A stretch of 50,068 nucleotides of DNA from Synergistaceae bacterium (lineage in GTDB: Bacteria > Synergistota > Synergistia > Synergistales > Synergistaceae). The stretch lies in contig JAITRO010000003.1 in the NCBI GenBank assembly GCA_031288335.1, forward strand, positions 1 through 50,068, read 5' to 3'. Shown one piece after another: positions 11,582 through 32,264 of this stretch. How positions within the stretch are numbered: position 1 is the first letter of the stretch; each line of letters begins with the position of its first letter. The notes below the pieces were generated by a model that was not told the origin of the DNA, did not search any database, and worked only from the letters and a program-made list of their open reading frames with translations. A program made the position numbers and the translations under genes.

Positions 11582-11720
11582 GATCAAGATCTCGGGGCTC
11601 CGCCCCGAACCTCGGCAGGGAATAAGCTCCCTGCACCCTCTTTATTTTTATAATTTTTATAAAGGGGCTCAAGGAGTTTGCCCTTTGCGTGGTTTGGAGC
11701 GGAGCCCCAAGGTCTTGATC
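11582..11720. repeat. modular palindromic intergenic repeat, copy R1
   Basis: gatcaagatctcggggctccgcccc ... ggagcggagccccaaggtcttgatc terminal inverted repeat. Confidence 0.85.
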
Positions 11721-28662: not shown

Positions 28663-28691
28663 TTGACAACCGCACAATTCTATGCTAGCCT
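28663..28691 (+). promoter_or_regulatory. candidate promoter for the leader/symporter transcript
   Basis: TTGACA (28663-28668), 17-nt spacer, TGc-TAGCCT extended -10 (28686-28691). Confidence 0.5.
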
Positions 28692-28726
28692 ACCAAATGT
28701 CAATTTTTGGAGGGAGCGGTAAATTT

Positions 28727-28807
28727 ATGCCGTTTGTCCGTATTTTTAAAGAGGCTTACCTTTACTACTATTACGGAACTGGACCCCTTTGGAGTCCGGG
28801 ATTGTAG
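28727..28807 (+). CDS. Tyr-rich leader peptide, 26 aa (MPFVRIFKEAYLYYYYGTGPLWSPGL)
   Basis: ATG 28727, TAG 28805-28807, RBS ggaggg upstream; five Tyr codons in six (tac ctt tac tac tat tac, 28757-28774). Confidence 0.75.
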   Translation: MPFVRIFKEAYLYYYYGTGPLWSPGL

Positions 28808-28865
28808 TATTTGGCCTCAAAAAGGACAGACGACGCAAACCGGTTAAAAAATCCAAAGAGGGTCC
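28781..28865 (+). promoter_or_regulatory. predicted antiterminator pairing of a transcription attenuator
   Basis: ggacccctttgga (28781-28793) pairs with tccaaagagggtcc (28852-28865), 13 bp with one bulged A at 28859; competes with the terminator at 28856-28884. Confidence 0.7.
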
Positions 28866-28892
28866 CGCAAAGCGGGGCCCTCTTATTTTATT
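28856..28892 (+). terminator. attenuator terminator upstream of symporter
   Basis: aagagggtcccgc-aaa-gcggggccctctt (13 pairs, one G-T) followed by attttatt. Confidence 0.85.
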
Positions 28893-28907
28893 GAGGGGGT
28901 ATTTTAT

Positions 28908-30458
28908 GTGTTTGTAAAAATTTCCATGATGTGCGTTTTTTTTGCGGTCACGATTGCGGTGGGGCTGATTTGCCGGAACCGCGGCACGTCGGTCGACGGT
29001 TTCGTGCTCGGCGGACGGGCGATAGGTCCGTGGCTCACGGCTTTCGCTTACGGCACGTCGTATTTTTCCGCCGTGGTTTTCGTGGGTTACGCCGGACAGT
29101 TCGGCTGGCGTTTCGGCATCTCGGCCGTGTGGATAGGGCTCGGCAACGCCTTTATCGGCTCGCTCTTGGCCTGGGTCGTCCTGGCACGCCGGACGCGAGT
29201 CATGACGAGGCACATCAACAGCGCGACGATGCCGGATTTTTTCGGGAAGCGCTATGGCTCGTCCTCCCTCAAAGTCGGGGCGTCCATCATCACCTTCGTG
29301 TTTTTGGTTCCCTACACGGCCTCGTTGTATAACGGTCTGTCGAGGCTGTTCTCGATGGCTTTCAGCGTGGATTTCACCGTATGTATAGCCGCCATGGCGA
29401 TACTTACCGGTGTCTACGTCATAACGGGGGGATACCGCGCCACGGCGGTCAACGATTTCATTCAGGGCGTGATAATGCTTGTCGGCATCATCGCCGTGAT
29501 CTCGTCGGTGCTTGCCGTAAACGGGGGCTTTACCCAGTCGATCGAGGCTTTGTCCCGGGTGGAGGACGCCGCGGTCTCCGCGTCGCCGGGGATATTCGCC
29601 TCGTTCTTCGGGCCGGCCCCGTTTGATCTGCTCGGCGTGGTGATACTGACCTCGGTGGGGACGTGGGGGCTGCCGCAGATGGTCCAAAAATTCTACTCCA
29701 TCCGCTCCGAGAAAAACATAAACACCGGCACAGTGGTATCCACGGTGTTTGCCGTGATAGTTTCAGGCGGTTGTTACTTTCTCGGCGCTTTCGGCCGGCT
29801 TTTCACGGATGGCGCGAGCGTGGCATCCGGCGGCTTTGATTCCATAATACCGGCGATGCTCTCCGGATTTTCCGATCCGCTCATTGGCGTCGTGATCGTG
29901 CTGGTATTCGCCGCGTCGATATCAACGCTCTCATCTCTTGTAATGGCATCCGCGTCGACGTTCACACTCGACTTTTTGCAGGGAGAGACGAAGAAAATGG
30001 ACGAAAAGACGCAGCTATTCACAATAAGAATCCTCATAGCGTTCTTCATCGTCGTCTCGTCGGTCATCGCGACGATACAGTACAAGGGCGGCGTGAGTTT
30101 CATAGCGCAGCTCATGGGAGTATCGTGGGGCGCTCTCGCCGGCGCTTTTCTCGCTCCATTCCTCTACGGATTGTACTGGCGCGGCGCGGCGAAGGGCGCG
30201 GTGTGGTGCAACTTCATTTTCGCCTCGGTCTTCATGATAGCGAATATATTGTTCAGGCCGTATTTTCCGAAGATGCTGGCTTCCCCCATCAATGCGGGCG
30301 CGTTCACGATGCTCGCCGGATTCGTCATCGTGCCGCTGGTCAGTGTGTTCGTCAGAAAACCGGCGGATTCTCTCGTCAATCATTGCTTCGCATGTTACGA
30401 GACGACCATATCCGTCAAAGCCGCCGAATCGCTCGGCTCGCCGGAGCGAGACATGTAA
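28908..30458 (+). CDS. sodium:solute symporter (SSS) family transporter
   Basis: VDGFVLGGRAIGPWLTAFAYGTSYFSAVVFVGYAGQFGWRFG...GVYVITGGYRATAVNDFIQGVIML; about 13 TM; GTG start with gaggggg RBS. Confidence 0.88.
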   Translation: MFVKISMMCVFFAVTIAVGLICRNRGTSVDGFVLGGRAIGPWLTAFAYGTSYFSAVVFVGYAGQFGWRFGISAVWIGLGNAFIGSLLAWVVLARRTRVMTRHINSATMPDFFGKRYGSSSLKVGASIITFVFLVPYTASLYNGLSRLFSMAFSVDFTVCIAAMAILTGVYVITGGYRATAVNDFIQGVIMLVGIIAVISSVLAVNGGFTQSIEALSRVEDAAVSASPGIFASFFGPAPFDLLGVVILTSVGTWGLPQMVQKFYSIRSEKNINTGTVVSTVFAVIVSGGCYFLGAFGRLFTDGASVASGGFDSIIPAMLSGFSDPLIGVVIVLVFAASISTLSSLVMASASTFTLDFLQGETKKMDEKTQLFTIRILIAFFIVVSSVIATIQYKGGVSFIAQLMGVSWGALAGAFLAPFLYGLYWRGAAKGAVWCNFIFASVFMIANILFRPYFPKMLASPINAGAFTMLAGFVIVPLVSVFVRKPADSLVNHCFACYETTISVKAAESLGSPERDM

Positions 30459-30575
30459 AAACCTTGGGGCTCCGCCCCAAACCCCGGCAGGGAGCTTGCT
30501 CCCTGCACCCTCATTAAAGGGAAGGGGTCAAGGGGCTTGCTCCTTGCGGGGTGTGGGGCAGAGCCCCAAGGTTCT
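30457..30575. repeat. modular palindromic intergenic repeat, copy R4
   Basis: accttggggctccgccccaaaccccggcagggagcttgctccctgc ... ggggcagagccccaaggtt between tandem genes. Confidence 0.85.
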
Positions 30576-30611
30576 GTTAATAATTTTTACATCAATACGG
30601 AGGATAAAAAA

Positions 30612-32264
30612 ATGCCAATTACTGAACTATTAAAAAACAACGCGAGGCAAAACGGAGACGCCGCAGCGGTGGTGGAACTGAGCCCGCGTTCAGGTTCGGA
30701 CAGGATAGTTTCGCCGTCCGATTACGACAGGTCTGACAGTTTTCCTGATTTATCGGCCCGGCGCGAGATGACATGGAGGACGATGGACCGCGACGCGGAC
30801 AGGATAGCCAACTTCTGCATTTCTCTGGGCCTGGGCAAGGGAAAGCACGTCGCCGTCCTCATGAAGAACGCCCTCGAATGGTTCCCGATATATTTCGGGA
30901 TAATGAGAAGCGGAGCGCTGGTCGTGCCCATCAACTTCCGCAACACGACGGAAGAAACCCGGCAATGCCTGGAACTGACGCGACCCGAGGCTATTTTCTT
31001 CGGGCCAGAATATGCCGATCAAATGGCGTCCATCTGTGAGGAAGGGACGAGCGTAAAGACGTTCGTCTCGACGTCGCCCGACTGCCCCGATTTCGCCGTC
31101 AAGTATTTCGACTGCGTGCGCGGCGCGAGCGGCAAACATCCGAACGTTCCCGTCTCCGACGAGGACGACGCGGCCATATACTTCACTTCAGGCACCACCG
31201 GACAGCCAAAGGCCATCCTTCATACGCACTCGTCAATAATGTCGGTATGCGTCACCGAACAGACGCACCACGGGCAGAAAGCAAGCGACGTATTTCTGTG
31301 TCTCGCCCCCCTGTTCCACACGGGAGCGATGATGCACTGGCTGGGAAGCCTCGTCTCGTGCAGTAAGGCCGTACTGCTGCGCGACGGCAAACCCAGGTCC
31401 ATTTTGAACGCGCTGTCGGAGGAAGGCGTGACGATAGCTTTCATGCTGGTTCCATGGGTGCAGGACATACTTCAGGAGGTGGAAAACGGAAATCTGTCCT
31501 TCGAAGACTACAACCTCGACAGGTGGCGCTTGATGCACATAGGCGCGCAACCAGTGCCGCCGGAGCTGATAGCGCGCTGGCGTGAGTTTTTCCCCGAGCA
31601 GCAGTATGACACAAATTATGGGCTGAGCGAATCCATGGGCCCTGGATGCGTACATCTGGGCGTGGAAAATCTCCGCAAGGTCGGGGCCATAGGCAAACCT
31701 GGGATAAACTGGCAGGCGAAGATAGTGTCCAACGATGGGAAAGACGTGCCGCAGGGAATGATAGGCGAACTCGCGGTCAAAGGCCCAGGGGTGATGAAAC
31801 TCTACTACCGCGACGAGGAATCGACGGCCTCCACCCTGCGCGGCGGATGGCTCTACACCGGCGACATGGGCTACACGGATGAAGAGGGCTTCATCTACCT
31901 CGTCGACAGGAAAAAAGACGTGATAATCAGCGGCGGCGAGAACATATTCCCTATTCAGATAGAAGATCACATCAGGACGATGGGCTGCGTGAAAGACGTC
32001 GCCGTGATAGGCGGTTACGACAAACGCCTGCTGGAAGTACCGGTGGCTGTCGTGTCTATGAAGGACGGCGCGTCCGCCGGCGAGAACGACTTCGCGGTAC
32101 ATTGCGAGGCGCTTCCCCGCTACAAGAGACCGCGCAGATTCATATTCGCCGACGTACCGCGAAACGCGACGGGCAAAATAGAAAAACCGCGCCTGCGAGC
32201 CATGTACGGCGGCGCGCCGGCGCGGGACGATGTTCATGGGAAGACTGGAAAGCCGACGGCCTAA
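30612..32264 (+). CDS. AMP-dependent acyl-CoA synthetase/ligase
   Basis: AAIYFTSGTTGQPKAILHTHSSI; NYGLSESMG; LYTGDMGYTDEEGFIYLVDRKKDVIISGGENIFPIQIED. Confidence 0.92.
   Translation: MPITELLKNNARQNGDAAAVVELSPRSGSDRIVSPSDYDRSDSFPDLSARREMTWRTMDRDADRIANFCISLGLGKGKHVAVLMKNALEWFPIYFGIMRSGALVVPINFRNTTEETRQCLELTRPEAIFFGPEYADQMASICEEGTSVKTFVSTSPDCPDFAVKYFDCVRGASGKHPNVPVSDEDDAAIYFTSGTTGQPKAILHTHSSIMSVCVTEQTHHGQKASDVFLCLAPLFHTGAMMHWLGSLVSCSKAVLLRDGKPRSILNALSEEGVTIAFMLVPWVQDILQEVENGNLSFEDYNLDRWRLMHIGAQPVPPELIARWREFFPEQQYDTNYGLSESMGPGCVHLGVENLRKVGAIGKPGINWQAKIVSNDGKDVPQGMIGELAVKGPGVMKLYYRDEESTASTLRGGWLYTGDMGYTDEEGFIYLVDRKKDVIISGGENIFPIQIEDHIRTMGCVKDVAVIGGYDKRLLEVPVAVVSMKDGASAGENDFAVHCEALPRYKRPRRFIFADVPRNATGKIEKPRLRAMYGGAPARDDVHGKTGKPTA

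Follow-up and report, generated by a model that had tools for sequence, protein, structure and literature searches.

A Tyr-codon leader peptide with competing RNA helices as a probable transcription attenuator of a sodium:solute symporter operon in Synergistota

Introduction

Transcription attenuation by leader peptides is textbook knowledge for Trp, His, Phe, Leu, Ile/Val, and Thr. Leader-peptide systems have been described as known only in Proteobacteria and Actinobacteria, to which the same report added His leaders in Firmicutes (PMC2965389). His leaders were also reported in further Firmicutes, and HisR, rather than leaders, in Synergistetes (PMC9413887). RNA control of tyrosine genes, in turn, has been described in the form of T-boxes (PMC1262725).

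In the current study, we analyzed a 50,068-nt stretch of DNA (hereafter the window; genome G000) from a Synergistaceae bacterium, an anaerobe of the gut. Here, a methyl-accepting chemotaxis gene and a gene for a sodium:solute symporter of the SSS family flank an element that had been proposed to be a Tyr-codon attenuator. The original prediction held that such an attenuator may be undescribed, and our search agreed with it: no precedent for a Tyr-codon leader peptide was found in the open-access papers searched, and precedent elsewhere is possible.

Results

The leader region in the window

All features described here lie on the plus strand and are given in window positions. The promoter (28663–28691) comprises a −35 element TTGACA at 28663–28668, a 17-nt spacer, and an extended −10 element TGC-TAGCCT at 28683–28691; when seven orthologous leaders were aligned, the TTGACA and TGnTAnnCT blocks were invariant. 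On the basis of this motif, transcripts would be expected to start near 28698. Direct reading of the sequence identified the leader Shine-Dalgarno GGAGGGAG at 28709–28716, which is conserved among the orthologous leaders. The leader ORF (28727–28807) consists of 26 codons, begins with ATG at 28727, ends with TAG at 28805–28807, and has the predicted translation MPFVRIFKEAYLYYYYGTGPLWSPGL. In its control region (28757–28774), five of six positions are Tyr codons (28757, 28763, 28766, 28769, and 28772). All coordinates previously assigned to this Tyr-rich ORF with its own ribosome-binding site were reproduced. Because the pattern SD-ATG-(Tyr)4 occurred at a single locus in the 2.5-Mb genome and at none in the reversed control, and because it recurs 5′ of orthologs, we consider the leader to be more than a chance ORF.

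The 5′ arm of the antiterminator (28781–28793), identified by folding and covariation, lies in the final part of the leader ORF, and the 3′ arm (28852–28865) overlaps the 5′ arm (28856–28868) of an intrinsic terminator (28856–28892). The latter, the 13-pair terminator anticipated before the symporter GTG, was found by the terminator scan; its stem (28856–28884) reads AAGAGGGTCCCGC-AAA-GCGGGGCCCTCTT and is followed by ATTTTATT. The competing antiterminator helix of 13 bp with one bulged A (28781–28793 paired with 28852–28865) was likewise recovered. Together with a nested middle hairpin M (28796–28843), which was seen in the fold and overlaps with the leader stop codon on its 5′ side, it constituted the minimum-energy fold of 28779–28867 (−35.1 kcal/mol, z −4.65; none of 200 shuffles was as good). 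When the second arm of the terminator was included in the folded segment, the minimum switched to the terminator.

A third hairpin, P1 (28780–28798; 28779–28799 as first proposed), could hide the 5′ arm of the antiterminator and had been suggested as its protector. In the window, P1 forms with −9.4 kcal/mol, whereas in four of six relatives it reached only −3.7 to −6.5 kcal/mol; its conservation is poor, it is probably dispensable, and its role as a protector is doubtful. The trp-type layout of 1:2, 2:3, and 3:4 helices was thus borne out for the competition between antiterminator and terminator, but not as a strict set of four segments, since the 1:2 helix is weak and poorly conserved. The 3′ arm of the terminator can also form nine pairs with the symporter Shine-Dalgarno (window 28877–28900), a complementarity that might limit translation once the antiterminator forms.

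Conservation upstream of symporter orthologs

Upstream DNA was available for 13 Synergistaceae orthologs, of which nine were preceded by a Tyr-run leader. Seven of these leaders (G000, G003, G009, G006, G021, G005, and G001; symporters 79–100% identical) belong to one RNA family, designated family A. All five Tyr codons were kept in all seven, with synonymous TAT/TAC changes only; the third base varied at four of the five codons, and the N-terminal and flanking residues diverged. G005 has lost 1 nt downstream of the Tyr run, which gives its peptide a different end and leaves the helices intact; because the frameshift spares the helices, it is the RNA, not the peptide, that is conserved there. 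G018 and G178, with symporters 64% identical, carry an unrelated Tyr-rich leader (family B, beginning MGKAFINNRYYYCYYAYPR) with its own terminator and antiterminator. No Tyr leader was found upstream of the orthologs in the remaining genomes of this set (G002, G008, G173, and G174) or upstream of the 17 f3 orthologs examined. Neither a T-box-like motif nor a convincing Tyr leader was found upstream of 79 orthologs from Bacillota, Desulfovibrio, Spirochaetota, and others. The Tyr run expected in orthologous loci was thus kept in these nine Synergistaceae orthologs, and both competing helices showed compensatory changes; the leader was absent from the orthologs examined outside this family.

Tyr leaders elsewhere in Synergistota

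When 188 Synergistota genomes were scanned for SD-ATG-(Tyr)4 and the matches were filtered by frame, more Tyr leaders were revealed, which brought the total to 23 leaders in 23 genomes; at least 23 Synergistota genomes thus carry candidate switches of this kind. In eight genomes (G176, G140, G143, G138, G084, G151, G154, and G085; loci L175, L180–L182, L184, L186, L192, and L194), a family A leader with recognizable antiterminator and terminator was located 5′ of a gene of the TPL/tryptophanase superfamily. The original prediction was of a tyrosine or aromatic amino-acid transporter, but the regulated set is wider, given that a TPL-like lyase gene follows the same element. Moreover, a second SSS subfamily was preceded by Tyr leaders in six genomes, belonging to family B in G025, G029, G030, and G171 and to family C in G045 and G054. 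At least three unrelated Tyr leader sequences are therefore present in one phylum. The family A symporter arrangement and the lyase were never found together in one of the genomes examined, and generic TPL/tryptophanase homologs (37–40% identity) were without a Tyr leader.

The covariance model R1, built from family A, matched exactly 15 loci, with E values of about 5e-12 or better; as these 15 had served as its training set, the result shows no more than that further copies did not turn up. Matches of R1 in G076 and G080 (E 0.01–0.06) were dismissed as noise. Several matches to the Tyr-run pattern were also discarded: some were out of frame, one was the N-terminus of a GNAT-family protein, those in G081 and G082 were small proteins directly before a gene and had no terminator, and one in G063 was internal to a long protein. 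At a separate locus (L177; G040:C15:156200), a Tyr-run leader beginning MTPSFSENSFYYYYVYG lies directly before a gene for a PaaK-like phenylacetate-CoA ligase and lacks a clear terminator; it perhaps acts in translation control.

No match to a T-box or other Rfam element was found in the window, and no match to RF00230 (T-box) anywhere in G000. Of 14 Synergistota genomes tested, 11 gave T-box-like matches (G018, G029, G045, and others), but only 3 genomes passed the gathering score.

Covariation and ribosome position

In the alignment of the seven symporter leaders, the antiterminator arm was paired in 97.8% of cells, and hairpin M, which is partially conserved, in 87%. The native antiterminator duplex had a stability of −22 to −24 kcal/mol in all seven, and exchanging arms between divergent species reduced this to as little as −13.6 kcal/mol. 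In a 15-sequence alignment (seven symporter and eight lyase leaders), the terminator was 97.5% paired, both partners had changed in six of its pairs, and every measure was reached by 0 of 500 shuffles. The antiterminator was 87% paired in this alignment; its covariation score was reached by 0 of 500 shuffles and exceeded those of all slid versions. Because relatedness inflates shuffle tests, the slid controls and the arm exchanges were also relied on.

The effect of ribosome position was assessed in all 23 leaders by folding the transcript up to the first arm of the terminator with a 30-nt ribosome footprint placed at each position. Sequestration of the terminator arm averaged 0.68 for a ribosome on the first Tyr codon and 0.35 for one on the stop codon, from where it covers only part of the antiterminator arm. 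Sequestration was greater in the stalled position in 22 of the 23 leaders; a tie was obtained for G005, in which the frameshift has moved the stop codon. The difference between the two positions exceeded that for dinucleotide-shuffled spacers (Wilcoxon, 4e-5, for leaders that are non-independent) and was small in G005, G085, G140, and G151. Folding with and without a footprint, which had been suggested as a check of the element, thus yielded a computed preference for the antiterminator upon stalling and for the terminator once the ribosome is on the stop codon. The predicted direction of the switch, in which low levels of charged tRNA-Tyr would turn the symporter on, is supported by this model.

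The symporter operon and tyrosine synthesis

The symporter (28908–30458; 516 amino acids; PF00474, 4e-48) begins with GTG, is preceded by a Shine-Dalgarno GAGGGGG at 28893–28899, and has a start at 28908 that is conserved in G003, G009, and G006. It scored below every NCBIfam equivalog cut-off, and its closest PDB relatives by sequence, SGLT1/2, were uninformative on substrate. The second gene of the presumed operon encodes an AMP-dependent acyl-CoA ligase (30612–32264; PF00501), within an ORF spanning 30537–32264 and with a likely start at ATG 30612. The ligase adjoins the symporter in all genomes in which the symporter has a family A leader. In Bacillota (L037–L107; many Lachnospiraceae and others), the symporter stands beside or near a ligase relative (about 51–60% identity) with no Tyr leader, an arrangement hinting at a conserved transporter-ligase pair. 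Between the symporter and the ligase of the window, two copies of a REP/MITE-like palindromic element with ends GGGGCNGAGCCCC face each other (30463–30571), where some relatives have a gap of 28–40 nt. The window contains six copies, with none expected; further sites are at 11594, 23697, 38296, and 43241.

Tyrosine synthesis was then compared among the genomes. Chorismate synthase, prephenate dehydratase, and TyrA were all below cut-off in G000, G001, G003, G006, G009, G018, and G178, where gene absence in G000, a genome 78% complete, is weak evidence on its own; G021 lacked prephenate dehydrogenase (TyrA) only. The leader-less G002 and G008 contained all three genes. Exceptions to this link were G005, which has both a leader and the full pathway, and G173 and G174, which are auxotrophs without a leader. 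Overall, the majority of leader carriers were without TyrA. Because pathway genes are missing in most leader carriers, a role of the symporter in tyrosine supply is favored.

TyrA was also below the family cut-off in seven of the eight lyase-leader genomes, and G150, the only lyase-clade genome that has upstream DNA and no leader, contains TyrA. In an alignment, the lyase clade retained lysine 257 of TPL and the 'MERG' motif Arg, and Leu replaced TPL Arg217; the roles of these residues are those generally known for TPL. With Leu at the Arg217 position, the reaction of the lyase clade is uncertain. The gene neighborhoods of the lyase and of the second symporter subfamily offered no metabolic clue.

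Discussion

The anatomy of the element, its conservation, its covariation, and the footprint effect are computed results. Considered together, they make it very likely that the element is a Tyr-codon ribosome-mediated transcription attenuator controlling the symporter operon, which would be on when tyrosine is short and off when it is plentiful. From these results we infer ribosome stalling, its timing, the direction of the switch in vivo, and the substrate. RNA polymerase would start near 28698, and a ribosome would trail it on the 26-codon leader. With charged tRNA-Tyr scarce, the ribosome would stall at 28757–28774 and leave 28781–28793 free to pair with 28852–28865, with hairpin M inside; the antiterminator would then capture the 5′ arm of the terminator, and transcription would continue into the symporter and CoA ligase genes. 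With tyrosine plentiful, the ribosome would reach the stop codon at 28805 and cover about 28787–28817, blocking half of the antiterminator as well as hairpin M, so that the terminator (28856–28884) would form and the operon would be off. Given that the protector is weak beyond the nearest kin of the window, a ribosome at the stop codon is a better candidate for blocking the antiterminator than the 1:2 helix. For the symporter, the most likely function is Na+-coupled import of tyrosine or an aromatic relative, in bacteria of which the majority cannot make tyrosine; the adjacent acyl-CoA ligase could mean that it carries a carboxylic acid other than tyrosine.

Several other explanations were weighed against this one. 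The nascent leader peptide could bind free tyrosine and arrest the ribosome near its end, as in TnaC, such that excess tyrosine would turn the operon on. The occurrence of one target clade within the TPL/tryptophanase superfamily speaks for such a sensor, and the E. coli tna operon (PMC8429421) provides a precedent for a leader peptide before an enzyme of this type. However, conservation concerns a homopolymeric cognate-codon run rather than particular residues; conserved C-terminal residues were not found, the C-terminus differing widely and being frameshifted in G005; and a ribosome held at the stop codon favored the terminator in the model, the opposite of induction by excess. We regard a TnaC-like sensor as improbable. 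Slightly less probable still is an inverse codon logic, whereby stalling on the Tyr codons would block the antiterminator, shortage would turn the operon off, and plenty would turn it on, as would suit a catabolic lyase. The geometry of family A lends this some credence, for its antiterminator 5′ arm starts 9 nt downstream of the first nucleotide of the last Tyr codon, and stalling on that codon cut antiterminator formation to 0.43–0.59 in the symporter leaders. Starved ribosomes, however, are expected at the first cognate codons, 18–24 nt upstream of the arm, where the arm is fully free (0.70–0.86), and in families B and C the leaders, with a single exception, retained an intact antiterminator even when the ribosome stalled on the last Tyr codon.

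It could also be that tyrosine is not sensed and that the element is an ordinary terminator next to a conserved small protein, the alternative fold being incidental. Tyrosine-containing small proteins do exist, and the pattern search did yield false positives, such as the small ORFs of G081 and G082 and the GNAT-family N-terminus. Against this stand the covariation of the antiterminator, the conservation of Tyr codons in a peptide that otherwise diverges, the recurrence in unrelated leader sequences and before unrelated genes, and the position-dependent switching; we give this explanation very little credence, the least of the three.

The placement of the same leader before the lyase counts against attenuation by tyrosine shortage, because a degradative enzyme should respond to tyrosine; a tyrosine-degrading lyase is expected to be induced by tyrosine and not by starvation. 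One possibility is that the lyase synthesizes or salvages tyrosine. A broader and rather unlikely proposal is that the leader is a mobile tyrosine-shortage module of Synergistota without TyrA, placed either on a tyrosine importer or on a divergent TPL-like lyase that runs synthetically or salvages tyrosine. The presence of the switch before this lyase makes the physiological role of the enzyme clade a directly testable question. In the same manner, the Tyr leaders give otherwise generic SSS symporters a testable substrate class.

The mechanism proposed here is itself known; its Tyr-codon form in Synergistota appears to be new. The Tyr-codon family extends the amino-acid and phylogenetic range of leader-peptide attenuation to a phylum that is untreated in that literature. 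With the trp, his, and pheA attenuators of Proteobacteria (PMC1183508), it shares a short leader ORF, a run of regulatory codons, an arm common to antiterminator and terminator, and a decision made by ribosome position. It differs from them in that the codons are Tyr, no 1:2 protector helix is conserved, the antiterminator arm lies within the end of the leader ORF, and the target genes, in the phylum Synergistota, encode a transporter and a PLP lyase. The His leader peptides of Firmicutes, which have three to five cognate codons in a row (PMC2965389, PMC9413887), are a further case of classical attenuation beyond Proteobacteria and Actinobacteria, but the amino acid, the target genes, and the lineage are different here. 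A T-box riboswitch likewise senses uncharged tRNA and switches between antiterminator and terminator, whereas in this case the sensor is a translated codon run. Finally, the tnaC leader of the tryptophanase operon resembles the present family in preceding an enzyme of the TPL/TnaA superfamily, as in eight genomes here; however, TnaC senses free Trp via the nascent peptide, whereas the codon runs and geometry of the Synergistota leaders point to the sensing of tRNA charging.
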